Assembly (NCBI RefSeq): GCF_034057115.1
Contig: NZ_CP139195.1
Location: 3,100,001-3,164,000, forward strand
DNA: 64,000 nucleotides
Direction of reading: 5' to 3'
Source of the DNA: Pseudomonas sp. AN-1
GTDB lineage: Bacteria; Pseudomonadota; Gammaproteobacteria; Pseudomonadales; Pseudomonadaceae
In this document: piece by piece, positions 5,812-24,807 of the stretch
Position numbering within the stretch: the first letter of the stretch is position 1
Layout of the letters: each line of letters opens with the position of its first letter
Program-made: the position numbers and the translations under genes
The notes under the pieces: model-generated
The model's input: the letters and a program-made list of their open reading frames with translations, nothing else
Told to the model about the DNA's origin: nothing
Databases searched by the model: none

Positions 5812-6097
5812 GCCCCGTCCCTGGCTGCGGCGCGGCATCAGCCGCGCCGGCTCCCTGCTGCTGGCCGCACCGCTGGCGCTGGTGCTGCTGATCCATCCCG
5901 CCGCCATGCTCGACGCCGAGGGCCGCTACAGCCACGGGCTGCTGATGCTGGTGATGTGGGGCATCTGCAGCGGCTTCGTCCACGGCGTCGGCTTCGACCC
6001 GTACAGCCGGCTGTGGCGCAGCATCTTCCATCCGCTGGGCGGCTGGCTGCTGATGGGCCTGGGCTATCTGGCCCTCTGGCGCGCCCAGCTGACTTGA
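5795..6097 (+). CDS. ybgE: cyd operon protein YbgE
   Basis: A 100-residue membrane protein whose start at ATG 5795 overlaps the cydX end. It has three hydrophobic segments and conserved YbgE features: LLIHPAAMLDAEGRYSHGLL and GICSGFVHGVGFDP. YbgE is a conserved membrane protein of bd oxidase operons with no proven activity. Its stop is only two bases from the stop of the convergent atpG, leaving no room for a separate terminator. Confidence 0.85.
   Translation: MRVAAEPRPWLRRGISRAGSLLLAAPLALVLLIHPAAMLDAEGRYSHGLLMLVMWGICSGFVHGVGFDPYSRLWRSIFHPLGGWLLMGLGYLALWRAQLT

Positions 6098-6929: not shown

Positions 6930-6933
<4 letters not shown>
6100..6933 (-). CDS. atpG: N-type ATPase gamma subunit
   Basis: The last gene of the N-ATPase operon, 277 aa from GTG 6933, whose GTGA overlaps the atpA stop; a longer frame reaches 6960 but would disrupt this coupling. 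It has the gamma pattern: an N-terminal helix with [19 protein letters not shown], a central Rossmann-like region ([20 protein letters not shown]) and a C-terminal helix with [21 protein letters not shown] and [15 protein letters not shown]. It forms the central shaft linking alpha3beta3 to the c ring. It converges on ybgE. Confidence 0.9.
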
Positions 6934-8445
<1,512 letters not shown>

Positions 8446-8465
<20 letters not shown>

Positions 8466-9195
8466 GGCGACTCAGCTCCCGCTGCAAGCGCGCCAGGTCG
8501 GCGCGGAAACTGTTGCGCACCACGGCGCTGGAGCCTTCCAGCTCGAGGCCGGCGATCAGCCCGGGCTCGACCTCGACGCGCAACTGCGGCTCGCCGCCGA
8601 GCGCCGGCGCCAGCGCCGCGCGACAGCGCTGCAGCTCGTCCGCCGCCAAAGGGCGCGGCGCGCGCAGGGTCAGCGCGCCGTGCTCGGCACACAGGGTCTG
8701 CCGGGCAGCCGGGGCGAGCTGTTCCAGCCCCTCGACCAGACCGTCGATGAAGGCCGTGACCCGCAGGCTGTCCGGCAGGCGCGCCAGCAGGTGCGTGGCG
8801 ATGTCCAGAGCCAGCGTGCCGGCCTGCGCCTCGAGCTGCGCCTGGGCGGCGAGGCGCTGCGCCTGCAGCGCGGCCTCGGCCTGGACACGCTGGCGCTCGG
8901 CCTCGGCATGGGCGTCGGCGAGCAGGCGCTCGCGAGCCGCAGCGGCCTCGCGCTGCACGGCGGCCAGCGCCGCCTCGCGCTGGGCGGCCAGCTCCTCGCG
9001 AGCGGCCTGTGCCTGCTGCCGTTCGGCCTCGGCGGTCGCCTTGGCCGCCGCCGCCTCGTCGAGCAGGCGGCCGGCCTGCTGCTGGCGTTCGGCGACGATG
9101 CGCACCACCGGTCTGAACAGGAAGCGCGATAGTAGCCAGACCAGCACGACGACGTTGAGCGTCTGCAGGCCGAGGGTCCACCAGTCCAGGGTCAT
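8446..9195 (-). CDS. atpF: N-type ATPase b subunit with delta-like C-terminal part
   Basis: 249 residues, much longer than ordinary b (about 156). Residues 1-25 form a membrane anchor ([23 protein letters not shown]), residues about 30-130 a long Ala/Gln/Glu-rich coiled coil, and the last 100 residues resemble the delta (OSCP) C-terminal region: [32 protein letters not shown] matches the delta pattern of GG-hydrophobic-D/S-S-R-x-RL. No separate delta gene is present in the operon, as is known for N-ATPases. The protein is therefore a b-delta fused stator. Start ATG 9195 is 10 bases after atpE. Confidence 0.9.
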
Positions 9196-9205
9196 GGGCG
9201 CGGAC

Positions 9206-9454
9206 TCAGTGCACGAAGGGGTTGGCGAACAGCAGCAGCACCGCCACCACCAGGCAGTAGATGGCCATGGTCTCGATCATCGCCAAGCCGACGAACAGGG
9301 TGCGCGACAGGCTGCCGGCGGCTTCCGGCTGGCGAGCGATGGCGTCCATCGCCGCAGCCACCGCGCGGCCCTCGGCCAGCGCCGGGCCGATGGCGCCGAA
9401 GCTCACCGCGACGGCGGCGGCGATGATGCTGACGATCTGGATCAGGTTGTCCAT
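9206..9454 (-). CDS. atpE: N-type ATPase c subunit (rotor ring)
   Basis: An 82-residue hairpin of two helices joined by the ARQPE loop. Helix 1 contains GPALAEG with Glu28 where the sodium-binding Ilyobacter c subunit has Gln32; helix 2 contains IETMAIY with Glu61, Thr62 and Tyr66, matching the Glu-Ser/Thr-x3-Tyr ion site. This two-carboxylate site is typical of N-ATPases. Such sites were proposed to carry Na+, but proton use is also possible, so ion specificity is not settled by sequence. The start is MDNLIQ at 9454; an upstream open frame is a shadow of atpB. Confidence 0.93.
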   Translation of the reverse strand: MDNLIQIVSIIAAAVAVSFGAIGPALAEGRAVAAAMDAIARQPEAAGSLSRTLFVGLAMIETMAIYCLVVAVLLLFANPFVH

Positions 9455-9458
9455 GCGA

Positions 9459-10145
9459 CTACTCCTTGCTTGACGAGGGCGGGGCGTGCCCCTGGACCGC
9501 GGCGGCGACGAACACCATGGCCAGCACGCTGAAGATGTAGGCCTGGATCGCCCCGGTGAGCAGGTCCAGGGCCATGAACGGGATCGGCACCAAGAGGCCT
9601 GCCAGCGACAGGGCAATGCCGACCACGAACACGCCGCTCATGATGTTGCCGAACAGGCGCACGATCAGCGAGAAGGTGCGGGTCAGTTGCTCGACGATGT
9701 TCAGCGGGATCATCACCCAGCTCGGCTCGGCGAAGGTGCGCAGGTAGCCGCGCAGGCCCTGGCTGGCGATGCCGTAGCCGACGCTGGCGACCAGCACGAT
9801 CAGCGCCAGGGCGGCGTCGGTCTCCAGATTGGCGGTCGGCGGCTCCAGCCCCGGCAGCAGCTCCGCCCAGTTGGCGGCGAGGATGAACAGGAACAGGCTG
9901 CCGAACAGCGGCCGGTAGCGAGCCGGCTCCACCTGCATGGTGGCGCGGATCTGCTCGTCGAGGGTGCCGACCAGCAGCTCCAGCACGGCCTGTCCGCGCG
10001 ACGGGCGCAGGCTCAGGCGGCGAGTCAGCAGCCAGCTGCCACCGGCCAGCGCCAGTATCAGCAGCCAGGTCACCGCCACCGCCTTGCTGACCGGCAGCGG
10101 ACCGAGATGGAACAGGGTCTCGCTGACCAGCGGCGAGGTCATCAT
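9459..10145 (-). CDS. atpB: N-type ATPase a subunit
   Basis: A 228-residue polytopic membrane protein with five or more helices. The essential stator arginine is in FSLIVRLFGNIMSG and the helix continues to the conserved FMALDLLTGAIQAYIFSVLAMVF, the standard a-subunit C-terminal signature. It forms the ion half-channels against the c ring. The ATG at 10145 overlaps the atpR stop (ATGA); two consecutive Met codons are available. The following gene atpE starts four bases after its stop. Confidence 0.95.
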   Translation of the reverse strand: MMTSPLVSETLFHLGPLPVSKAVAVTWLLILALAGGSWLLTRRLSLRPSRGQAVLELLVGTLDEQIRATMQVEPARYRPLFGSLFLFILAANWAELLPGLEPPTANLETDAALALIVLVASVGYGIASQGLRGYLRTFAEPSWVMIPLNIVEQLTRTFSLIVRLFGNIMSGVFVVGIALSLAGLLVPIPFMALDLLTGAIQAYIFSVLAMVFVAAAVQGHAPPSSSKE

Positions 10146-10420
10146 GGCCGCATCCTCCGCAGCGTCAGCTGCCGCGCCAGCAGCAGGCCGAGCGCACCGG
10201 CCAGCAGCGCCGCCAGGCCCAAATTGATCAGCGCGGCGAGCGCCGCCACGCTCAGGCCCACGCGCAGCAGCTGCAGGGCCAGCGCCGGCAGCACGCGGCC
10301 GGCGCTGAACAGGCGCAGGTTGAGGGCCAGCGAGGCGAAGTGCAGGGCGCCGACCAGGGCACCGACCAGCACGCCGACGCCGAGCTGCGCGGCCAGCGGC
10401 AGCTGCGTCCAGGCCGTCAT
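10142..10420 (-). CDS. atpR: N-type ATPase accessory subunit AtpR
   Basis: A 92-residue membrane protein with three predicted helices and the family features FASLALNLRLF in helix 2 and QLLRVGLSVAALAAL in helix 3. AtpR is specific to N-ATPase operons and sits between atpQ and atpB, as here. The start is ATG 10420, four bases inside the atpQ end. Its role is thought to be in assembly or ion access; this is not proven. Confidence 0.85.
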   Translation of the reverse strand: MTAWTQLPLAAQLGVGVLVGALVGALHFASLALNLRLFSAGRVLPALALQLLRVGLSVAALAALINLGLAALLAGALGLLLARQLTLRRMRP

Positions 10421-10700
10421 TGGCGGTGCATCCAGCGCCAGGCCGACCACAGGCCGAGGGCGGCGCCGAGGAACAGCAGGGCGGCGGCGAACATCACCCC
10501 GGTGCCGAGCAGGCGGTCCAGCCAGCGGCCGATGAACAGGCCGAGCAGCAGCGGCACCACGATGGCCCAGCCGAGCACGCCGATCTGCCCGAGGCGGCGG
10601 CCCAGCGACGGCTCCGGGTCGTCGCGGGACTGCGCCTCGCGCTGTACGGCGCGGCGCGCCGCGGCGTCCATGCTCTGGTCCGGCTGGTCGTCCGGCTTCA

Positions 10701-10704
<4 letters not shown>
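10417..10704 (-). CDS. atpQ: N-type ATPase accessory subunit AtpQ (AtpI-like)
   Basis: 95 residues: a charged N-terminus (about 45 aa) followed by two hydrophobic helices (IGVLGWAIVVPLLLGLFIGRWLD and VMFAAALLFLGAALGLWSAW). The GxxxGxxLD-type turn resembles AtpI/AtpQ proteins. It lies third in the operon after atpD and atpC, the expected place for atpQ. It overlaps both neighbours by four bases. It is probably an assembly factor for the c ring. Confidence 0.83.
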
Positions 10705-12639
<1,935 letters not shown>

Positions 12640-13032
12640 TCAGCCCACCGGCAGGCTGCAGCTCCACAGCTCCAGCGCCGGCCGCTCCGCCGAGGGCGGG
12701 CCGAGCCATTCGCTGAGCTCATGGCAGGCGCCGGCGAAGCACAGCTGGTAGTCGCCCGCCTCAGGGGTGCGGCCGACGCGCAGCGGCTGCAGCGGCGGCA
12801 GCTGGCGCCGGTAGTGCCAGCTGCCGTCGCGCAGTTCGGCACCGTCGGGGATCTCCATGCCGGCGCCGTTGCCCCTCACCCGCGCCTCGCCGAGGACCAG
12901 GCCCTCGGGCGTGACGCGGTAGTCCTCCTCCCAGCGCACCTTCTCGATGGTGTGGGTCCAGGCCAGGGTGAAGGCCGGCACGGGCAGGCTCGCCCACACC
13001 GCGCCGGCCAGCCCCAGGCACAGGCCGATCAC
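12640..13032 (-). CDS. DUF1850 protein associated with TAXI-TRAP transporter
   Basis: 130 aa from GTG 13032, whose GTGA overlaps the stop of the TRAP permease gene. The N-terminal hydrophobic segment is followed by the DUF1850 pattern: LAWTHTIEKVRWEEDYRV, then GARV-like and a GAGMEIPDG turn. DUF1850 proteins are usually encoded next to TAXI-type TRAP permeases; their function is unknown, possibly an exported accessory. The coupling to the permease gene supports that link here. Confidence 0.85.
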   Translation of the reverse strand: MIGLCLGLAGAVWASLPVPAFTLAWTHTIEKVRWEEDYRVTPEGLVLGEARVRGNGAGMEIPDGAELRDGSWHYRRQLPPLQPLRVGRTPEAGDYQLCFAGACHELSEWLGPPSAERPALELWSCSLPVG

Positions 13033-15053
13033 GCCGCCACCGCCAGGGCGCGGCGCGCACGCCAGCAGTGCTGGGCGAGGAACAGGCCGCCGAGGGCGAA
13101 GCCCAGTTCGTCGCTGAGCGGCAGGGCGAGGATCAGCGCCACCCCGGCGGCGAACGCCAGCAGACGCTCCCAAGCGGCCAGGTCGCGCTGCAGGTGGCCG
13201 GTGAAGGCCGCGCCCCACAGGGCGATCGCCAGCGCCGCCTTGACCAGCATGTAGAGGATCGCGCCCCAGCTGTCGCCCTGCAGCATCAGCGCCGGATCGT
13301 AGACCGCCATGAACGGCACCACGAAGCCGGCCGCGGCGATGCGCACCGCCCACAGGCTGATCCGGAAGCCGCTCTCGCGGGCGATCGGCGCCGCGGCGAA
13401 GGCGGCCAGCGCCACCGGCGGGGTGAGGTCGGCCATCAGGCCGAAGTAGAAGACGAACATGTGCGAGACGATCAGCGGCACGCCCAGTTCCAGCAGCGCA
13501 GGCGCGGCGATGGCGCTGGTGATGATGTAGTTGGGGATGGTCGGGATACCCATGCCCAGCACCAGGCAGGTGAGCATGGTCAGGAGCAGCGAGAGGAACA
13601 GGTTGTCCTGGCCGATGGCGAGGATGTAGCCGGCGAAGGTGGTGGCGATGCCGGTCAGCGACACCACGCCGATGATCACCCCGACCAGGGTGCAGGCGAT
13701 GCCCACCGGCACCGCGTGGCGGGCGCCCTCGACCAGCGCGTGCAGGCACAGGGTCAGGGTGTCGCGGCCGCCCTTGACGAACCAGCAGGCCGCCACCAGC
13801 AGGCCGATCACCGCGAACACCACGCCGATGCCGAGGCTGAAGAAGCCGGCGCAGAGCACGCCGAGGGCGATCCAGAAGGCCATGCGCAGGCCCCACGAGG
13901 ACACCCTGAGGATGATCGCCGAGCCGAGGATGACGATGGCGGTCAGCGCCAGGCCGACGGTACCGGAGAACATCGGCGTGCGCCCGGCGAACAGCAGGCA
14001 GACCAGCACCACCAGCGGGATCAGCAGGAACCAGCGCTCCTTCACCGCCGCCCAGGCGTTCGGGCACTCGCTCTTCGGCAGGCCGCGCAGGTCGGCGCGC
14101 TTGGCCTCCAGGTGGACCATCCAGAACACCGAGCCGAAGTACAAGAGCGCCGGCAGCAGCGCCGCCTTGGCCACCTCGACGTAGGGCACGTTGATGGTCT
14201 CGGCCATGATGAAGGCCACCGCGCCCATCACCGGCGGCATGATCTGGCTGCCCATGCTGGCGGTCGCCTCCACCGCGCCGGCGAACGCCGGGCGGTAGCC
14301 GAAGCGCTTCATCAGCGGGATGGTGAACTGGCCGGTGGTCACCACGTTGGCCACCCCGGAGCCGGTGATGGTGCCCATCAGCGCCGAGGACACCACCGAC
14401 ACCTTGGCCGGGCCGCCGAGCTTGTGGCCGAACAGGCCGAGGGCGAAGTCGGTGAACAGCTTGATCATCCCGGCCTGCTCGAGGAAGGCGCCGAACAGGA
14501 TGAACAGGAAGATGTAGGTGGCCGACACGTAGGTCGGCGTGCCGTACAGGCCCTCGGTGCCGAACGCCAGCTGGTTGACGATCTGGTCGACGCCGTAGCC
14601 GCGGTGCGCCAGGTCGCCCGGCAGGTACTCGCCGAACAGGCCGTAGGCGAGGAACAGCAGGCAGATGATCGGCAGGGCGATGCCCATCACCCGCCGCGCC
14701 GCCTCGAACACCAGGGCGACCAGCAGCACGCCGACCGCCATGTCGGCGCCGGTCAGCTCGCCGGAGCGCTGGATCAGGTCGGCCTCGAACAGCCACTGGT
14801 AGGCGAAGGTGGCCATGCCGGCCAGGCCGAGCAGCCAGGCCAGCGGCTGGAACGGTCGGTCGCTGCCGCGCGCCGGATAGCAGAGGAACACCAGCAGCAG
14901 CAGGAAGCCGACGTGGCCGGCGCGCAGCACCTGGCTGGACACCGGATGGAAGGCGGCGGTGACGATCTGGTAGATGGAGAACAGCAGGGCGACGTAGAAC
15001 AGCGCCTTCGGCCACTGGCCGGGGCTGGCGTGCAGACCTTGGCTTTCGCTCAT
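13029..15053 (-). CDS. TRAP transporter fused permease (DctQ-DctM type, TAXI family)
   Basis: A 674-residue, highly hydrophobic protein starting MSESQGLHASPGQWPKALFY at ATG 15053; an upstream extension of the frame is non-coding. The first 180 residues are the small 4-TM part, the rest the large permease with signatures SALMGTITGSGVANVVTTGQFTIPLMKRFGYRP, EATASMGSQIMPPVMGAVAF and GMGIPTIPNYIITSAIAAPAL (seen in parts). Fused permeases of this kind work with TAXI solute-binding proteins, using an ion gradient to take up organic acids. The binding protein gene lies 165 bases upstream. Confidence 0.95.
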   Translation of the reverse strand: MSESQGLHASPGQWPKALFYVALLFSIYQIVTAAFHPVSSQVLRAGHVGFLLLLVFLCYPARGSDRPFQPLAWLLGLAGMATFAYQWLFEADLIQRSGELTGADMAVGVLLVALVFEAARRVMGIALPIICLLFLAYGLFGEYLPGDLAHRGYGVDQIVNQLAFGTEGLYGTPTYVSATYIFLFILFGAFLEQAGMIKLFTDFALGLFGHKLGGPAKVSVVSSALMGTITGSGVANVVTTGQFTIPLMKRFGYRPAFAGAVEATASMGSQIMPPVMGAVAFIMAETINVPYVEVAKAALLPALLYFGSVFWMVHLEAKRADLRGLPKSECPNAWAAVKERWFLLIPLVVLVCLLFAGRTPMFSGTVGLALTAIVILGSAIILRVSSWGLRMAFWIALGVLCAGFFSLGIGVVFAVIGLLVAACWFVKGGRDTLTLCLHALVEGARHAVPVGIACTLVGVIIGVVSLTGIATTFAGYILAIGQDNLFLSLLLTMLTCLVLGMGIPTIPNYIITSAIAAPALLELGVPLIVSHMFVFYFGLMADLTPPVALAAFAAAPIARESGFRISLWAVRIAAAGFVVPFMAVYDPALMLQGDSWGAILYMLVKAALAIALWGAAFTGHLQRDLAAWERLLAFAAGVALILALPLSDELGFALGGLFLAQHCWRARRALAVAA

Positions 15054-15218
15054 GGGGACACCTCGGAGCGGGAAATCGGAAGGGACGAGAGCCGCCAACA
15101 AAACCTGCCGCGAGCGTTCACGCTGGCTTTGCTGGCACCTCTGCGGGCGGGCGGCGGGCGCAACGCCCGCGGCCATGCACCGGCGGAGCGCCGCAGGCGC
15201 CCCGACCGGCTCGGCGCC

Positions 15219-16175
15219 TTACTGGAGCACGCCGGCTTCCTTGTAGAAGCGCTCGGCGCCCGGGTGCAGCGGGATCGGCAGGTTCTGCGTGGCGGTCTGC
15301 AGCTGGATGTCCTTGGCCGCCGAGTGCGAGGAGGCCAGCCGGCCGAGGTTGTCGAACATCAGCTTGGTCATCTGGTAGGCCACCTCGTCGGAGACCTTGT
15401 CGTGGGTGACCAGGATGTTGGTGATCGCCACGGTCGGCACGTCCTCGCTCTGGCCGTCGTAGGTGCCGGCCGGGATCATCCTGGCCTGGTAGGCCGGGCT
15501 GCCGATCTTCGCCACCACCTCCGCCGGCACACCGATGAAGTTCAGCGGCATCACCGACGACAGGTCGCGGATCGCCGCCATGCCGAGGCCCGAGGACTGC
15601 AGGGTGGCGTCCAGCTGGCGGTTCTTGATCAGCTCCACCGACTCGGCGAAGGGCAGGAACTCGACCTTGCCCATGTCCTCGTAGGACAGCCCGGCGGCCT
15701 TGAAGATGGCCCGCGCGTTCAGCTCGGTGCCGGACTTGGCGGCGCCGACCGAGATGCGCTTGCCCTTGAGGTCGGCCAGGGTCTTGATGCCGGATTCGGC
15801 GCTGGCGACGATCTGGATGTAGTTCGGGTAGGTGCCGGCGATGGCGCGCAGCTTGGTCAGCGGCGCCTTGAAGCCGGCGTCCGCGACGCCCTTCCAGGCG
15901 TCGTCCACCGAGTCGGCCAGCGAGAAGCCCAGCTCGCCGCGGCCGGCCTGCAGCAGGTTGAGGTTCTCCACCGAGGCCTTGGTGGCCTGCACCGAGGTCT
16001 TCGAGCCGTCGATGCCGTTGCTGTACACCTGCGACAGGGCCACGCCCACCGGGTAGTACACCCCGCTGGTGCCGCCGGTGAGGACGTTGATGAAGGTCGG
16101 CGCGGCGAAGCTGGCGGTGCTGGCAGTCAGGGCGGCGGCAGCGGCGAACAGGCCGAGGCGTTTGCTCAGGGTCAT
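15219..16175 (-). CDS. TAXI-family TRAP transporter solute-binding protein
   Basis: 318 residues with a signal peptide (KRLGLFAAAAALTASTASFA, cleavage after Ala about residue 25). The mature protein has the TAXI signature early (INVLTGGTSGVYYPVGVALSQVY), then QATKASVENLNLLQAGRGELGF and LKGKRISVGAAKSGTELNARAI. It captures the substrate in the periplasm for the fused permease downstream. Start ATG 16175 was chosen because the signal peptide begins there; the longer frame to 16493 lies in the regulatory region. The substrate is not readable, but the nearby glutarate and DctB-like genes suggest a dicarboxylate. Confidence 0.94.
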   Translation of the reverse strand: MTLSKRLGLFAAAAALTASTASFAAPTFINVLTGGTSGVYYPVGVALSQVYSNGIDGSKTSVQATKASVENLNLLQAGRGELGFSLADSVDDAWKGVADAGFKAPLTKLRAIAGTYPNYIQIVASAESGIKTLADLKGKRISVGAAKSGTELNARAIFKAAGLSYEDMGKVEFLPFAESVELIKNRQLDATLQSSGLGMAAIRDLSSVMPLNFIGVPAEVVAKIGSPAYQARMIPAGTYDGQSEDVPTVAITNILVTHDKVSDEVAYQMTKLMFDNLGRLASSHSAAKDIQLQTATQNLPIPLHPGAERFYKEAGVLQ

Positions 16176-16255
16176 GGCGTTTCTCCGTCTTTGTTGTGCT
16201 TGTTCTTGGAATGCCGGACGGGCGAGGGGGCGCGCCGGCCGGGTGAAGTCACATT

Positions 16256-16270
16256 GCAGACGGCGTGCCA
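16256..16270 (-). promoter_or_regulatory. sigma54 (-24/-12) promoter of the TAXI-TRAP operon
   Basis: On the minus strand TGGCACGCCGTCTGC followed by A matches the sigma54 consensus TGGCACGNNNNTTGCW with one change (CTGC for TTGC); the GG and GC doublets have the correct 10-base spacing. The expected transcript start, near 16244, gives a leader of about 70 bases before the binding-protein ATG. Confidence 0.75.
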
Positions 16271-16320
16271 AAGGGGTGGATGGCTCTGGGATGGGGGTTG
16301 GCGGGGAGAGGCAGGGGATG

Positions 16321-16341
16321 GATCGGCGGATTCTTGCCGAT
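16321..16341. promoter_or_regulatory. activator-type palindrome A (candidate UAS of the TRAP promoter)
   Basis: It shares the 18-base core TCGGCRGATTCYTGCCGA with palindrome B; the arms ATCGGC/GCCGAT are inverted around GATTC, with one mismatched pair next to the centre in this copy. It is centred about 87 bases upstream of the predicted sigma54 start site. Confidence 0.65.
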
Positions 16342-16352
16342 GATGGAACAGG

Positions 16353-16373
16353 GATCGGCAGATTCCTGCCGAT
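16353..16373. promoter_or_regulatory. activator-type palindrome B (candidate UAS of the TRAP promoter)
   Basis: A second copy of the palindrome 32 bases from copy A (three helical turns), with the symmetry extended by flanking CAGG/CCTG. It is centred about 119 bases upstream of the predicted start. The tandem, in-phase arrangement is what bacterial enhancer-binding proteins use; the DctD-like regulator encoded at 18.1-19.4 kb is the obvious candidate. Confidence 0.65.
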
Positions 16374-16519
16374 CCCTGGCGGGCGCGCCTGCTCGCTGGC
16401 TCTCCCCAAGCGGCGGAACGATGGCCCGCCAGCGGGCGCTTGCGCTAACGTGTGGAATATCCACGGGCGAGCCGGCCCATCAGCCGGCTTCACCTCAACT
16501 CAGGGACCGAGAAACCGCC

Positions 16520-16918
16520 ATGAAACTCATCGCCCACTGCTGCCTGCCCGTTCTGCTGTCCATCAGCCTCGTCACGCCAGTCCTCGCCGCTGACGACGGC
16601 TACTCGCCCGTTTTCTCAAGCTGCATGGACGCCTCCGGCGGCGTCACCACCAACATGTTGAACTGCATCGGCAACGAAACGACGGTGCAGGATGCCCGCC
16701 TCAATCAAGCCTACAAGGCCGCCATGCAGGCCATCGCCCCCGAACAGCAGACTCAACTGCGCGATGCACAGCGACTGTGGATCAAGTACCGGGATGCCAA
16801 TTGCGGGCTGTATGGCAGCCTGACCGGCGGGACAATCGATAGGATCAATGGGGCGGGATGCATGCTGGAGATGACCCGGGAGAGGGCGGTTGAAATCGAG
16901 GGCATCGACGAGCCATGA
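16520..16918 (+). CDS. LprI-like (DUF1311) secreted protein
   Basis: 132 residues with a signal peptide (MKLIAHCCLPVLLSISLVTPVLA, cleavage near residue 23). The mature part has the DUF1311/LprI pattern: two cysteines (FSSC, MLNC) before the characteristic DARLNQAYKAAM and then LRDAQRLWIKYRDANC, ending with a MTRERAVEIE helix. Members include lysozyme inhibitors, so a periplasmic or envelope role is likely. It is less GC-rich than the neighbouring operons. The start has a weak ribosome site (GACCGAGAAACC). Confidence 0.85.
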   Translation: MKLIAHCCLPVLLSISLVTPVLAADDGYSPVFSSCMDASGGVTTNMLNCIGNETTVQDARLNQAYKAAMQAIAPEQQTQLRDAQRLWIKYRDANCGLYGSLTGGTIDRINGAGCMLEMTRERAVEIEGIDEP

Positions 16919-18106: not shown

Positions 18107-19447
<1,341 letters not shown>

Positions 19448-19449
19448 GT

Positions 19450-21237
19450 TCACTCCTGCTGCGCTGCCGGCAGTGTACCCGGCGCCGCCACGGCCGGCAG
19501 GCGCAGGCTGAACAGCGCGCCGTCGCCGGCGTTGCGCGCTTCGAGCTGGCCGCCCAGCTCGCGGACGATGCCGTAGGACACGGCAAGGCCGAGGCCCAGG
19601 CCGTCGCCCACCGGCTTGGTGGTGAAGAACGGCTCGAACACCCGCGCCAGCGCCTCGGCCGGGATTCCGCCGCCGCTGTCGGCCACGCTCAGCAGCCAGT
19701 CGGCGCCGTCGCGGCGCAGGTCGATGCGCAGCTCGCGCACGTCCTTGTCCACCATGGCGTCGAGGGCATTGTGCAGCAGGTTGACCAGCACCTGCTCGAG
19801 ACGGATGGCGTCGCCCTCGACCCAGGCCTCGGCATTGCGCTGGCGCAGCACCAGCACCTGGTCCTGGCGGATGCGCGGCTCGAGCAGCAGCAGGGCGTGG
19901 TCGACCACGCTGTCCGGCTGCAGGCGCTCGCGCAGACCGCCGGGGCTGTTGCGGGCGAAGGTCTTCAGGTGGCCGGTGAGCGCGGCCATGCGCGTCAGCA
20001 GGCCGTCGATGCGCGCCAGGCAGGTCTGCACCGCCTGCGCGTCGTTGCGCGCCAGCAGCAGGCCGAGGCTGCCCAGCTGCATGCGCATGGCGGTCAGCGG
20101 CTGGTTGATCTCGTGGGCCATGGCGGCGGACATCTGCCCCAGCGCGGCCATCTTGGCCGCCTGCACCAGCTCGTCCTGGGCCTGGCGCAGCTCGGCGGTG
20201 CGCGCCTCGACCAGGCGCTCCAGCTCGGCGCGCGAGCGCTGGCGCAGGCGGCGGTTGTTGTGGCGCTGGACGAGGAACAGCAGGAGGAAGGCCAGCGCCA
20301 GCCAGGCGCCGCCGGCGGCCAGGCCGGCGCTGCGCACCGCGGCGTCCGCCGCGCCGGCCTCGTGCAGCAGGTGCAGGGTCCAGTCGTCCTCGACCAGCGC
20401 CTGGCGCAACCACAGGTAGTCGTGGCGGCCGTCCGGGCCGTCGACGCGCTGCAGCACGGCGCCCTCGTCGAGTTGGCGCAGCGGCTGCAGGTGCAGCGGC
20501 TGCAGAGTCTCGCCGGCGTACTTGCGGGCGTCCGGCGGCTGCAGCGGACGGTCGCCCGGCTCGCCCTGCAGGTGGCGGAAGCGCCAGGCCGGACGGTTGG
20601 CGAGGATCACCACGCCGTGGCGGTCGGTGACCAGCAGGGTGCCCGGCTGGCCGACCCAGCCGCGCTGCAGCTCCTCCATCTCCAGCTTGAGCGCCACCAC
20701 GCCGAGCGGCGTGCCGTCGTCGTCGCGCACCAGCCGGGAGAGGAAGTAGCCGGGCACCCCGGTGGTCACGCCGACCGCGAAGTAGCGGCCGCTGCCGTGG
20801 CGCAGGGCGTCCTGGAAGTAGGGGCGGAAGGCGTAGTTGTTGCCGACGAAGCTGGTCGGATCGTCCCAGTTGCTGGCGGCGATGGTCTCGCCGCGGGCGT
20901 CGAGGACGTAGAGCATCGCCGAGCCGGCCTCGGCGTTGAGGCGCTGCAGGCGCCGGTTGAGCAGCAGGCGCTGCCGAGGGTCGTTGCCGGCGCGCAGGGT
21001 GGCCTGCACCTCGCTGTCGTGGGCGACGATCGCCGGCACGGCGCGGTAGCGCTCGACCAGGATGCGCAGCGACTGTGCGTACAGCTCCAGCTGGTTGTGC
21101 GCCTCGACGCTGCGCTCCTGCCACTGGCGGCTTTCCGCGGCGCGCCCGGCCAGCCAGACGCTGACGCCCAGGCCGGCGAGGATCAGCAGGAGGACGAGGA
21201 CGACGCGCTGGCGCGAGGAGGTCGGCGGCATGCTCAT
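19450..21237 (-). CDS. DctB-like sensor histidine kinase
   Basis: A 595-residue membrane kinase with TM1 at about 11-30, a periplasmic sensing region to about 305, and TM2 at about 306-324. The sensor has features of C4-dicarboxylate sensor DctB: SFVGNNYAFRPYFQDAL and GRYFAVGVTTGVPGYFLSR. The kinase part has the H-box with His375 (AMAHEINQPLTAMR), N-box LLHNALDAM and G-boxes SGGGIP and GDGLGLGLA. It phosphorylates the DctD-like regulator encoded directly downstream. Its ATG at 21237 overlaps the stop of the LysR gene in an ATGA, so the three genes form one coupled transcript. Confidence 0.93.
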   Translation of the reverse strand: MSMPPTSSRQRVVLVLLLILAGLGVSVWLAGRAAESRQWQERSVEAHNQLELYAQSLRILVERYRAVPAIVAHDSEVQATLRAGNDPRQRLLLNRRLQRLNAEAGSAMLYVLDARGETIAASNWDDPTSFVGNNYAFRPYFQDALRHGSGRYFAVGVTTGVPGYFLSRLVRDDDGTPLGVVALKLEMEELQRGWVGQPGTLLVTDRHGVVILANRPAWRFRHLQGEPGDRPLQPPDARKYAGETLQPLHLQPLRQLDEGAVLQRVDGPDGRHDYLWLRQALVEDDWTLHLLHEAGAADAAVRSAGLAAGGAWLALAFLLLFLVQRHNNRRLRQRSRAELERLVEARTAELRQAQDELVQAAKMAALGQMSAAMAHEINQPLTAMRMQLGSLGLLLARNDAQAVQTCLARIDGLLTRMAALTGHLKTFARNSPGGLRERLQPDSVVDHALLLLEPRIRQDQVLVLRQRNAEAWVEGDAIRLEQVLVNLLHNALDAMVDKDVRELRIDLRRDGADWLLSVADSGGGIPAEALARVFEPFFTTKPVGDGLGLGLAVSYGIVRELGGQLEARNAGDGALFSLRLPAVAAPGTLPAAQQE

Positions 21238-22157
21238 TCCAGGCCGTGCTCGCGGCGGTAGGCCTGCGCCGTCTCGAGCAGCCAGTCGCGGAAGGCGCGC
21301 AGCGCCGCCGACTCGGCCTTGCGCTCGGGGACGATCAGGTAGTAGGCCTTGTCGCTCAGGTAGGCGTGCTGCAGCGGCACGATCAGGCGGCCCTCGGCCA
21401 GCTCGCGCTGGATCAACAGCGGCGGGATCAGCGCCACACCCATGCCGTGCATGGCGGCCTGGGCGAGCATGGAGAACAGCTCGTAGCGCGGCCCGCGCAT
21501 GTCGCCCTCGACCTGCAGGCCAAGCGAGCCGAACCACTGGCGCCAGGCGTAGGGCCGGGTGGTCTGCTGCAGCAGCGGCAGGGCGGCGATCGCCCGGGCG
21601 TCGAGGCTGGTGTGCGGAGCGACCAGCTCGGGGCTGCACACCGGCACCGGGTTCTCGCGCATCAGGAAGTCGGCGGCGGTGCCCGGCCAGTCGGCGTCGC
21701 CGAAGTACAGCGCGGCGTCGAACTCGGTGTCGGCGAACAGGAACGGCCGGGTGCGGTTGGTCAGGTTGACGGTGACCTCGGGATGCAGACGCTGGAAGTC
21801 CTTGAGGCGCGGCAGCAGCCACTGGGTGGCGAAGGTCGGCACCACCGCCAGCTCCAGGCTGGTGCTGCCCTGCTGGCCCATCACCGCCAGGGTGTCGCGC
21901 TCCACCGCGTCGAGCTGGGCAGCGATGCGCCGGCCGTAGGACAGGCCCTCCTCGGTCAGGCGCACGCCGCGGCGGGTGCGGCGGAACAGCTCGACGCCGA
22001 GGAACGCCTCCAGCGCGGCGATCTGCCGGCACACCGCGCTCTGGGTCAGCGCCAGCTCCTCGGCGGCCTTGGTGAAGCTCTGGTGGCGCGCCGCCGACTC
22101 GAAGGCGACCAGCGCGGCGGTGCTGGGGATCTTGCGACGCATGTGCGACAGGCTCAC
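21234..22157 (-). CDS. gcdR: LysR-type regulator of glutarate catabolism (GcdR-like)
   Basis: A 307-residue LysR protein: N-terminal winged helix (TAALVAFESAARHQSFTKAAEELALTQSAVCRQIAALE in parts, residues about 12-50) and a periplasmic-binding-protein-like effector domain. It is divergent from gcdH with 150 bases between starts, the arrangement of gcdR in other pseudomonads, where it activates gcdH and the CoA-transferase gene in response to glutarate. The name is therefore based on position and family rather than on specific residues. It is translationally coupled to the dctB-like gene. Confidence 0.85.
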   Translation of the reverse strand: MSLSHMRRKIPSTAALVAFESAARHQSFTKAAEELALTQSAVCRQIAALEAFLGVELFRRTRRGVRLTEEGLSYGRRIAAQLDAVERDTLAVMGQQGSTSLELAVVPTFATQWLLPRLKDFQRLHPEVTVNLTNRTRPFLFADTEFDAALYFGDADWPGTAADFLMRENPVPVCSPELVAPHTSLDARAIAALPLLQQTTRPYAWRQWFGSLGLQVEGDMRGPRYELFSMLAQAAMHGMGVALIPPLLIQRELAEGRLIVPLQHAYLSDKAYYLIVPERKAESAALRAFRDWLLETAQAYRREHGLE

Positions 22158-22307: not shown

Positions 22308-23489
22308 ATGGCTGCCAACGCCCGCTTCAACTGGGAAGACCCGCTGCTGCTCGACCAGCAACTGACCGACGAGGAACGCATGGTGCGCGACAGCGCGCAG
22401 AAGTTCGCCGCCGACAAGCTGGCGCCGCGGGTGCTGGAAGCCTTCCGCCACGAGCACACCGACCCGGCGATCTTCCGCGAGATGGGCGAGACCGGCCTGC
22501 TCGGCGCGACCATCCCGGTCGAGTACGGCGGCAGCGGCCTCAACTACGTGTGCTACGGCCTGATCGCCCGCGAGGTCGAGCGCATCGACTCCGGCTACCG
22601 CTCGATGATGAGCGTGCAGTCCTCCCTGGTGATGGTGCCGATCAACGAGTTCGGCACTGAGGCGCAGAAGCAGAAGTACCTGCCGAAGCTGGCCAGCGGC
22701 GAGTGGATCGGCTGCTTCGGCCTGACCGAGCCGAACCACGGCTCCGACCCGGGCTCGATGATCACCCGCGCCAAGAAGGTCGACGGCGGCTACCGGCTGA
22801 CCGGCAGCAAGATGTGGATCACCAACAGCCCGATCGCCGACGTGTTCGTGGTCTGGGCCAAGGACGACGCCGGCGACATCCGCGGCTTCGTGCTGGAGAA
22901 GGGCTGGCAGGGTCTGTCCGCCCCGGCGATCCACGGCAAGGTCGGCCTGCGCGCCTCGATCACCGGCGAGATCGTCATGGACAACGTGTTCGTGCCGGAA
23001 GAGAACATGTTCCCCGAGGTACGCGGCCTCAAGGGCCCGTTCACCTGCCTGAACTCGGCACGCTACGGCATCGCCTGGGGTGCGCTGGGTGCCGCCGAGG
23101 CCTGCTGGCACACCGCCCGCCAGTACGTGCTGGACCGCCAGCAGTTCGGCCGCCCGCTGGCCGCCAACCAGCTGATCCAGAAGAAGCTGGCCGACATGCA
23201 GACCGAGATCACCCTGGCCCTGCAGGGCTGCCTGCGCCTGGGCCGGATGAAGGACGAGGGCACCGCGGCGGTGGAGATCACCTCGATCATGAAGCGCAAC
23301 AGCTGCGGCAAGGCGCTGGACATCGCCCGCCTGGCCCGCGACATGCTGGGCGGCAACGGCATCAGCGACGAGTTCGGCGTGGCGCGGCATCTGGTCAACC
23401 TCGAGGTGGTCAACACCTACGAGGGCACCCACGACATCCACGCGCTGATCCTCGGCCGCGCGCAGACCGGCATCCAGGCGTTCTTCTGA
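22308..23489 (+). CDS. gcdH: glutaryl-CoA dehydrogenase
   Basis: 393 residues with acyl-CoA dehydrogenase domains in order: N-terminal helical, beta ([32 protein letters not shown]) and C-terminal helical. The catalytic base is Glu372 in [17 protein letters not shown]. It oxidatively decarboxylates glutaryl-CoA to crotonyl-CoA using FAD, the last specific step of lysine, tryptophan and glutarate breakdown. The start [23 protein letters not shown] is typical. It is followed by the CoA-transferase gene. Confidence 0.96.
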
Positions 23490-23583: not shown

Positions 23584-24807
23584 ATGTCCGGCGCCTTGGC
23601 CAATATCCGCGTCCTCGACCTGTCCCGCGTGCTGGCCGGCCCCTGGGCCGGGCAGATGCTCGCCGACCTCGGCGCCGACGTCATCAAGGTGGAACGCCCG
23701 GGCTCGGGTGACGACACCCGCCACTGGGGCCCGCCGTTCCTCAAGGACGCCGAGGGCCGCGACACCCGCGAGGCGGCCTACTACCTGTGCGCCAACCGCA
23801 ACAAGCGCTCGCTGACCGTCGACTTCACCCAGCCGGAAGGCCAGCGCCTGATCCGCGAGCTGGCGGCGCAGTCGGACGTGCTGCTGGAGAACTTCAAGGT
23901 CGGCGGCCTGGCCGCCTACGGCCTCGACTACCAGAGCCTGAAGGCGATCAATCCGCGGCTGATCTACTGCTCGATCACCGGCTTCGGCCAGCAGGGGCCC
24001 TACGCCCAGCGCGCCGGCTACGACTTCATGATCCAGGGCCTCGGCGGGCTGATGAGCCTGACCGGGCGCGCCGCCGACGAGGAGGGCGCCGGGCCGGTGA
24101 AGGTCGGCGTGGCGCTGACCGACATCCTCACCGGCCTGCACGCCAGCGTGGCGGTGCTCGCCGCGCTCAACCACCGCCACGCCAGCGGCGAGGGCCAGCA
24201 TATCGACCTGGCCCTGCTCGACGTGCAGGTGGCCTGCCTGGCCAACCAGGCGCTGAACTACCTGACCACCGGCGTGGCGCCGCGCCGCCTGGGCAACGCC
24301 CACCCGAACATCGTGCCGTACCAAGATTTCCCCACCGCCGACGGCGACTTCATCCTTACCGTCGGCAACGACGGCCAGTTCCGCCGCTTCTGCGAGGTCG
24401 CCGGCCATCCGGAGTGGGCGGACGATCCGCGCTTCGCCAACAACAGCGCGCGGGTCGCCCACCGCGGCGAGCTGATCCCGCTGATCCGCCAGGCCACGGT
24501 GTTCAGGACCACCGCCGAATGGGTCGCCGCGCTGGAGGAGGCCGGCGTGCCGTGCGGGCCGATCAACGACCTGGCGCAGGTGTTCGCCGACCCGCAGGTG
24601 CTGGCCCGCGGCATGCGGGTCGACCTGGCGCACCCGCTGGCCGGCAGCGCGCCCGGGGTGGCCAGTCCGCTGCGCCTGTCGGCCACCCCGGTGGAATACC
24701 GCAACGCGCCGCCGCTGCTCGGCGAGCACACCGAAACGATCCTGGCCGAGCGCCTGGGCCTGGACGGCGAGACGATCGCCGACCTGCGCGCACGCGGCGT
24801 CATCTGA
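23584..24807 (+). CDS. gcoT: class III CoA-transferase (glutarate/succinyl-CoA type)
   Basis: 407 residues of the CaiB/BaiF family: ALANIRVLDLSRVLAGPWAGQMLADLGADVIKVERPG start (seen in parts), the catalytic Asp about residue 147 in RAGYDFMIQGLGGLMSLTG, and GEGQHIDLALLD. Located directly after gcdH, it most likely activates glutarate to glutaryl-CoA with succinyl-CoA or another CoA donor. The specific donor cannot be read from sequence. A perfect intrinsic terminator follows. Confidence 0.88.
   Translation: MSGALANIRVLDLSRVLAGPWAGQMLADLGADVIKVERPGSGDDTRHWGPPFLKDAEGRDTREAAYYLCANRNKRSLTVDFTQPEGQRLIRELAAQSDVLLENFKVGGLAAYGLDYQSLKAINPRLIYCSITGFGQQGPYAQRAGYDFMIQGLGGLMSLTGRAADEEGAGPVKVGVALTDILTGLHASVAVLAALNHRHASGEGQHIDLALLDVQVACLANQALNYLTTGVAPRRLGNAHPNIVPYQDFPTADGDFILTVGNDGQFRRFCEVAGHPEWADDPRFANNSARVAHRGELIPLIRQATVFRTTAEWVAALEEAGVPCGPINDLAQVFADPQVLARGMRVDLAHPLAGSAPGVASPLRLSATPVEYRNAPPLLGEHTETILAERLGLDGETIADLRARGVI

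Follow-up and report, generated by a model that had tools for sequence, protein, structure and literature searches.

In Pseudomonas aeruginosa, the use of alpha-ketoglutarate via PA5530 requires MifSR (the sensor MifS and the activator MifR) and RpoN, and PA5530 responds to alpha-ketoglutarate (PMC4482717). The same report describes a motif, GATCGGCGGATt/gTCC, that was found in silico to be common to PmifS and PPA5530 and whose role was left open. In Rhizobium meliloti, the activator DctD recognises TGTGCGgaaatCCGCACA, and there are two sites at dctA (PMC11077940, citing Ledebur and Nixon 1992). The site of another activator, AauR, at aatJ of P. putida is TTCGG-N4-CCGAA (PMC7962211). As for transporters, KgtP of E. 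coli takes up glutarate (PMC12622518), and glutamate or glutamine is the ligand of the TAXI proteins from V. cholerae and T. thermophilus (PMC11574862).

We analysed a stretch of 64,000 nucleotides from Pseudomonas sp. AN-1 (the window is this whole stretch). We think it likely that at this locus a MifR-type activator switches on a sigma54 promoter and thereby a TAXI-TRAP operon that imports a C5-dicarboxylate, taking the regulation and the import together; our confidence in any single substrate is lower. The relevant features of the window are as follows.

12640-13032, minus strand: small downstream ORF that accompanies the operon in relatives (start codon guessed)
13029-15053, minus strand: fused TRAP permease gene, DctM type (TIGR02123, 757.7 bits; cutoff 320.65)
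15219-16175, minus strand: TAXI-family TRAP solute-binding protein gene (TIGR02122, 376.9 bits; cutoff 84.35; also NMT1_3)
16255-16270, minus strand: predicted sigma54 -24/-12 promoter TGGCACGCCGTCTGCA (motif match; conserved in relatives)
16323-16340, minus strand: predicted proximal MifR-type enhancer site TCGGCAAGAATCCGCCGA (motif, chance test, conservation in relatives)
16355-16372, minus strand: predicted distal MifR-type enhancer site TCGGCAGGAATCTGCCGA (motif, chance test, conservation in relatives)
18107-19447, minus strand: mifR-type gene encoding receiver, sigma54-activating AAA+ and Fis-type HTH domains (Pfam, tree)
19450-21237, minus strand: mifS-type gene for a dCache sensor histidine kinase (Pfam)
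21234-22157, minus strand: gene for a gcdR-like LysR regulator, overlapping mifS on the same strand (domains; adjacency in the genus)
22308-23489, plus strand: acyl-CoA dehydrogenase gene, likely the glutaryl-CoA dehydrogenase gcdH (named by neighbourhood)
23584-24807, plus strand: gcdG-like CoA-transferase gene, best match succinate--glutarate CoA-transferase (NF052585, 549 bits, below the cutoff of 750)

The operon is of the TAXI-TRAP type, as its TAXI binding protein and fused TRAP permease both score above the NCBIfam cutoffs. The small ORF behind them had no NCBIfam match at 1e-30; we take it to be DUF1850-like. The acyl-CoA dehydrogenase had no NCBIfam equivalog above cutoff. With PF00072, PF00158 and PF02954 all above cutoff, the activator is a group I enhancer-binding protein (NtrC/DctD class). 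A sequence-only reading of this DNA had placed an activator gene about 2 kb from the TAXI gene, and indeed the gene ends 1.9 kb upstream of the TAXI ATG, on the same strand; LprI-like, GGACT-family and one uncharacterised gene stand between the regulator and the operon. F1F0 ATP synthase genes occupy 6930-12594 of the window, and the best match of their beta subunit is the alternate F1F0 ATPase model, below its cutoff (602 vs. 752 bits).

A conspecific genome (G056) seems to be without the segment from about 6.09 to 21.23 kb, which comprises the ATP synthase operon, the TAXI-TRAP genes and mifSR. About 20 bp past its gcdR match, G056 has a 105-bp match to window positions 5987-6091, at the contig end, and neither a MifS nor a TAXI orthologue was found in it. 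In a second genome of the genus (G001), mifS and most of mifR are gone, as is the TAXI orthologue, and gcdR has beside it a C-terminal fragment that resembles mifR (residues 320-441, 49% identity; L262:2785-3048); this looks like joint loss. G021 has two tandem TAXI genes downstream of mifSR, which are 82% and 79% identical to the window's (L043:6998-9393).

The near-consensus -24/-12 promoter that the sequence-only reading had seen on the minus strand is there, with limits of 16255-16270 instead of 16256-16270. TGGCACGCCGTCTGCA has the GG at -24 and the GC at -12 of a sigma54 promoter within TGGCACG-N4-TTGCW, with a single mismatch (C for T; 15 of 16 positions match, with N counted as matched). 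In the whole genome, TGGCACG-N4-YTGCW has 20 exact matches, as compared to none in a reversed control; the one-mismatch promoter pattern is not commoner in the window than in shuffles (4 vs. 2.75 expected). Given the position of the -12 element, transcription would start at about 16245. Upstream of the promoter are two palindromes with cores of 18 bp each and a start-to-start spacing of 32 bp; the sequence-only reading had reported them at this spacing, with wider limits that enclose the cores. Both have the form TCGGC-N8-GCCGA. The proximal one and the -24 element are 70 bp apart, again start to start, and the distal core sits in a 26-bp dyad (16351-16376) whose 11-bp arms are perfect. The pair had been placed about 87 and 119 bases before the start, which fits the predicted transcript start but not the ATG at 16175, which is about 156 and 188 bp from the palindrome centres.

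The palindrome had also gone unrecognised as a described site, and here we differ. It shares an 18-bp GC-N8-GC plan with the R. meliloti DctD site TGTGCGgaaatCCGCACA (PMC11077940), and it resembles the in silico motif GATCGGCGGATt/gTCC from P. aeruginosa (PMC4482717). Two 18-bp GC-N8-GC dyads upstream of a predicted sigma54 promoter make up a tandem operator of the DctD class, so that, judged by its plan, the window palindrome is a described kind of operator.

With up to 2 mismatches allowed, the palindrome pattern occurs twice in the window, where 0.01 occurrences would be expected by chance, and none of 100 shuffles contains as many. In the genome (4,609,694 bases), the window pair are the sole exact matches, and there are 6 further matches at 2 mismatches and 57 at 3, for a total of 65 as compared to 15 in a reversed control. 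This chance test is post hoc because the pattern was built from these same sites, so conservation in other genomes is a better test.

From a search of 56 genomes, we read 15 relatives with a TAXI orthologue (74-98% identity, window excluded). The sequence-only reading had held that the palindrome should recur upstream of orthologous TRAP operons. This was largely so: the palindrome pair and a -24/-12 site lie upstream of TAXI in 11 of the 15 relatives. They are absent in four (L018, L021, L022, and L024), which have no module upstream of TAXI and no match at E ≤ 1 to the promoter model R1 (described below). Three further TAXI orthologues in genus g9 have no model match. Among the 11 relatives with the pair, one site is degraded in L010, the proximal site of L016 is GC-N7-GC, the distance to -24 is 58 bp in L020, and in L014 the pair is 32 bp apart and about 137 bp from -24 (by eye). 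We aligned ten promoters on the -24 element (two of them shifted by one base), and pairwise identity was 59-62% for the sites and 85% for the -24/-12 bases, as compared to 31-38% for the bases between and upstream of the sites. In all, seven inspected TAXI orthologues are without the module (in G019, G010, G016, G032, one in G146, and two in G127); G146 and G127 do have MifS. In L014, L015, and L017, a long leader of 196-250 bp runs from -24 to the TAXI start, and we noticed by eye short ATG-started frames between the promoter and the TAXI gene, which are possibly leader peptides.

A different transporter can also follow this module. G016 and G032 encode the nearest relatives of the window's sensor (53-54%) and activator (72%) directly before a gene for a KgtP-like permease (PRK10406 above cutoff in G016). 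The gap between mifSR and kgtP contains a palindrome pair spaced by 32 bp and, at a distance of 70 bp, a -24/-12 site, and the TAXI orthologue of these genomes is without the module. As the KgtP/PA5530-like permease is unrelated to TAXI-TRAP, this suggests that the transporter was swapped, or another one acquired, behind a regulator and sites that remained in place. G022 and G070 have both transporters, arranged as mifSR, module, kgtP, module, TAXI.

To survey this arrangement, we used a sequence-only model, R1, which was built from 12 promoters, and searched it in 298 genomes of the family. R1 has a match at E ≤ 0.01 in 228 of the 298, which overcounts MifR sites because it includes DctD-type promoters, whose pair is similar, as well as genomes without MifS (G001, G003, and G010). 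We inspected 40 matches from outside the training set, which were picked by hand among the matches listed to cover genera and are mostly high-scoring: 20 are before TAXI, 18 are before KgtP, and 2 are after a DctD paralogue. In the window's own genome, R1 at E ≤ 0.01 with stricter filters finds this place only (the match and its reverse). Across 23 named loci of the MifR clade, TAXI is downstream in 5 (including Pseudomonas toyotomiensis, P. composti, P. indoloxydans, and P. dryadis), KgtP is downstream in 16 (including P. fluorescens and P. chlororaphis), and neither is downstream in 2; Stutzerimonas zhaodongensis and S. kunmingensis have neither downstream of the MifR-clade regulator. The R1 match reaches the -12 end in 5 of 5 TAXI loci and in 13 of 16 KgtP loci. 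At the KgtP loci L120, L122, and L146, the sites match, but no -24 element is in register. MifR is present and R1 has no match in L113 and L137.

The geometry of the module is nearly constant. A script that measured 73 promoters (which are not independent, as they include close relatives, the matrix was derived from members, and three are DctD-paralogue promoters) put the site spacing at 32 bp in 56 and at 31-33 bp in 69. The -24 element follows at 68-72 bp in 52 promoters, at 58-59 bp in 15, and at 81 bp and 92 bp in one each. The other four (L231, L045_10709, L223, and L125_9418) are off-register and were scored as misses; either the proximal site is weak or the script took another site or another -24 element. 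The script considers 30-125 bp upstream of -24, so longer distances such as that of L014 are invisible to it. In four kgtP promoters of genus g9 (L221, L222, L223, and L231), the proximal site is weak or was not found. The distance steps of about 11-12 bp match the prediction of a face-of-helix constraint, albeit in promoters that are related to each other. By eye, many TAXI and KgtP promoters share a AACCCCTCTANNNCGGGC-like stretch in the interval from the proximal site to -24; it is weak in the window itself (about 16275-16300).

From sequence comparison and by analogy, we infer that the substrate of the TAXI-TRAP importer is a C5-dicarboxylate without an amino group (alpha-ketoglutarate or another), because several observations point there. 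The switch can also stand before KgtP, which is tied to alpha-ketoglutarate in P. aeruginosa (as PA5530) and to glutarate in E. coli. gcdRHG-like genes lie beside mifSR in 5 of 8 genomes of the window's genus, and this adjacency was seen in that genus only. In Vibrio tapetis (L144:12963-14177; NF008726 above cutoff) and V. jasicida (L145:12095-13303; 76% identical), the TRAP genes are followed by a gene for L-2-hydroxyglutarate oxidase; the TAXI protein of V. tapetis shares only about 30% identity with that of the window. The remaining observation is a leucine in the binding pocket, which bears on an alternative: that the regulation is as we propose, but the TAXI-TRAP system carries glutamate or another substrate, as VcGluP from V. 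cholerae does. The closest solved structures to the window's TAXI protein, by sequence, are those of the T. thermophilus protein, which like VcGluP binds glutamate or glutamine. However, Gln93 of VcGluP contacts the amino group of the ligand, its loss cuts affinity 990-fold, and its counterpart in T. thermophilus is Gln78 (PMC11574862). Gln78 aligns with Leu86 in the window's protein, and Leu86 is nearly invariant among 13 orthologues, so the amino-contacting glutamine of the VcGluP type is replaced, which argues against glutamate. On the other hand, it is Thr187, not the glutamine, that contacts the amino group in the T. thermophilus protein, and the aligned residue in the window is Ser194, which also has a hydroxyl, so Leu86 does not settle the matter. 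Considering the KgtP partner and the gcdRHG-like neighbours as well, we view transport of glutamate or the like as unlikely and prefer a C5-dicarboxylate without an amino group. A narrower reading, with glutarate as the only substrate, was suggested by the gcdRHG-like neighbours and was weakened by the restriction of this adjacency to one genus and by the presence of the module with KgtP elsewhere.

Which activator would act at these sites? The sequence-only reading had proposed sigma54 with a DctD-like enhancer-binding protein. The comparative evidence favours sigma54 and an enhancer-binding protein of this family, but the name DctD fits less well than MifR. We built a tree of 64 activators (left out were rows covering fewer than 400 query residues or containing a stop, and P. 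aeruginosa MifR is not among the rows). In this tree, 48 rows form one clade (support 100/98) that contains the window's activator, and the DctD paralogues, including the one from the window's own genome, fall outside it. As the window's activator clusters with KgtP-linked (PA5530-type) regulators and apart from the DctD paralogues, the product of 18107-19447 is, by its sequence relationships, better called MifR-type than DctD. The clade has two branches. The first (96/83, 22 rows) comprises the regulators linked to TAXI, three rows of Stutzerimonas type with no transporter next to them, G022, which has both transporters, and G081; the other (99/89, 26 rows) holds KgtP-linked regulators. The split is not clean, as the MifR of G081 (L213) is in the TAXI-linked branch, yet KgtP only, and no TAXI, was found within the 6 kb read. 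Rows from other phyla are on long branches and their placement is unsure. The recognition helix is PRRT[LF]NEKM throughout the clade (48 of 48 rows) and in a single row outside it, from Desulfuromusa; in 4 of 4 Pseudomonadaceae DctD paralogues it is PRKTL.DKL.

An alternative is that these are real sigma54 enhancers at which a DctD or AauR paralogue acts, while the adjacent MifSR has other targets. Promoters that follow DctD paralogues do have a similar pair (L081, L224, and L232), which makes DctD a conceivable activator at the window as well, and the R. meliloti DctD sites have the same GC-N8-GC plan (PMC11077940). G030 also favours this view, as it has the sites and a promoter (at 58 bp) and no MifS orthologue was found in it (nor in G001, G003, or G010). 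Against it, the recognition helices of the MifR clade and of the DctD paralogues differ, and the module before TAXI or KgtP tracks MifS. A MifS orthologue (53-63%) is present in 15 of 15 tested genomes with an inspected match before TAXI or KgtP, as compared to 0 of 20 no-match genomes, which are 20 listed of 70, are clustered in few genera, and include four that are under 90% complete; these 20 have just two weak paralogues (35-36%), and a TAXI orthologue in G019 only. A MifS orthologue is also present in G127, where the inspected match follows DctD. Furthermore, 19 of 19 genomes hold an activator paralogue of at least 52% identity, yet TAXI is without the module in G010 and G019, which have the paralogue and no MifS. 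Overall, we consider it improbable that a DctD or AauR paralogue acts at these sites in place of MifR, and we favour the MifR-type activator. Action in trans is favoured by genus g15, in which the module remains before TAXI in 10 of 10 genomes that have mifS at another location.

Similar sites occur more widely. A dctD-like gene in G016 is followed by an enhancer pair of the DctD type and a sigma54 promoter (L081:8383-8514); no dctP-like gene was seen behind them, and arginine deiminase pathway-like genes come next (names by eye). In V. tapetis, a similar pair (34 and 68 bp) precedes the TAXI gene, with a weak R1 score (E = 0.057), and this gene adjoins a DctD-like regulator with a near-identical recognition helix. 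Desulfuromusa has one such site and no R1 match, and no palindrome pair was found in the stretch scanned at the V. jasicida locus L145.

Finally, that the palindromes are terminators, REP-like repeats, or an operator of the lprI-like gene, unrelated to sigma54, is very hard to believe: they do lie in the 344-bp gap separating the divergent TAXI and lprI-like genes, and the perfect dyad of the distal one would suit such a role, but neither a terminator-like site nor a sigma70 promoter was found in 16100-16560, the only two exact copies in the genome rule against a repeat, and in L040 and L041, where the upstream neighbour is mifR and no lprI match was found, the sites keep a fixed distance from -24.

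The comparison shows the conservation of the sites and promoter, their geometry, the kinship of the regulators, the co-occurrence with MifS, and the association with two types of transporter; from these we infer binding, phosphorylation, looping, activation, and substrate. Under the mechanism that we propose, the MifS-type sensor (19450-21237) would detect an extracellular C5-dicarboxylate and phosphorylate the MifR-type activator (18107-19447). Activator dimers would occupy both sites on one face of the helix and oligomerise, and the activator would then loop to the sigma54 polymerase at 16255-16270 and open the promoter. The product of the TAXI-TRAP operon (12640-16175) would import the compound that was sensed.

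More broadly, we lean slightly towards the idea that the enhancer module, with its nearly fixed geometry, is an interchangeable socket for C5-dicarboxylate importers, with either KgtP or TAXI-TRAP behind a MifR operator. The regulator and operator would persist while an unrelated transporter replaces the one behind them. If this is true, it defines a class of TAXI-TRAP systems for alpha-ketoglutarate, glutarate, or 2-hydroxyglutarate, and the link to a MifSR-type switch makes this substrate class testable. It also suggests a function for the published motif GATCGGCGGATt/gTCC (PMC4482717). The exact motif has no match in the loci of this analysis; at one mismatch, it matches the distal site of the kgtP promoters in three loci of genus g9.

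How does this locus compare to the known systems? It shares with MifS/MifR-RpoN-PA5530 of P. aeruginosa a related type of sensor and activator, a sigma54 promoter, and an operator that resembles GATCGGCGGATt/gTCC. In contrast, the target is a TAXI-TRAP operon instead of a KgtP-type symporter, and the motif section of PMC4482717 does not describe tandem palindromes as MifR sites. It shares with DctD-dctA of Rhizobium the two sites, the 18-bp dyad of the GC-N8-GC plan, and the sigma54 promoter; however, the flanks are TCG..CGA rather than the TGT..ACA of the DctD site (PMC11077940), the activator's clade is apart from the DctD of Pseudomonadaceae, and the target is TAXI-TRAP. The AauR system also has a DctD-family activator, paired sites, and a sigma54 promoter, but its half-sites are spaced by 4 instead of 8 and its target is an ABC transporter for acidic amino acids (PMC7962211); we rejected TTCGG-N4-CCGAA as the operator type because the N8 spacing in the window does not fit it. 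The window's binding protein is in the TAXI family (TIGR02122), as are VcGluP and TtGluBP, but their pocket glutamine (Q93/Q78; PMC11574862) aligns with Leu86, and the operon is behind a predicted MifR-type switch. Because MifSR/RpoN of P. aeruginosa and the DctD sites of R. meliloti share its elements, the architecture was already known. In the open-licence PMC literature, we found no paper that joins MifR with TAXI-TRAP, and we met neither the use of this known architecture at a TAXI-TRAP operon nor a transporter swap behind one operator.
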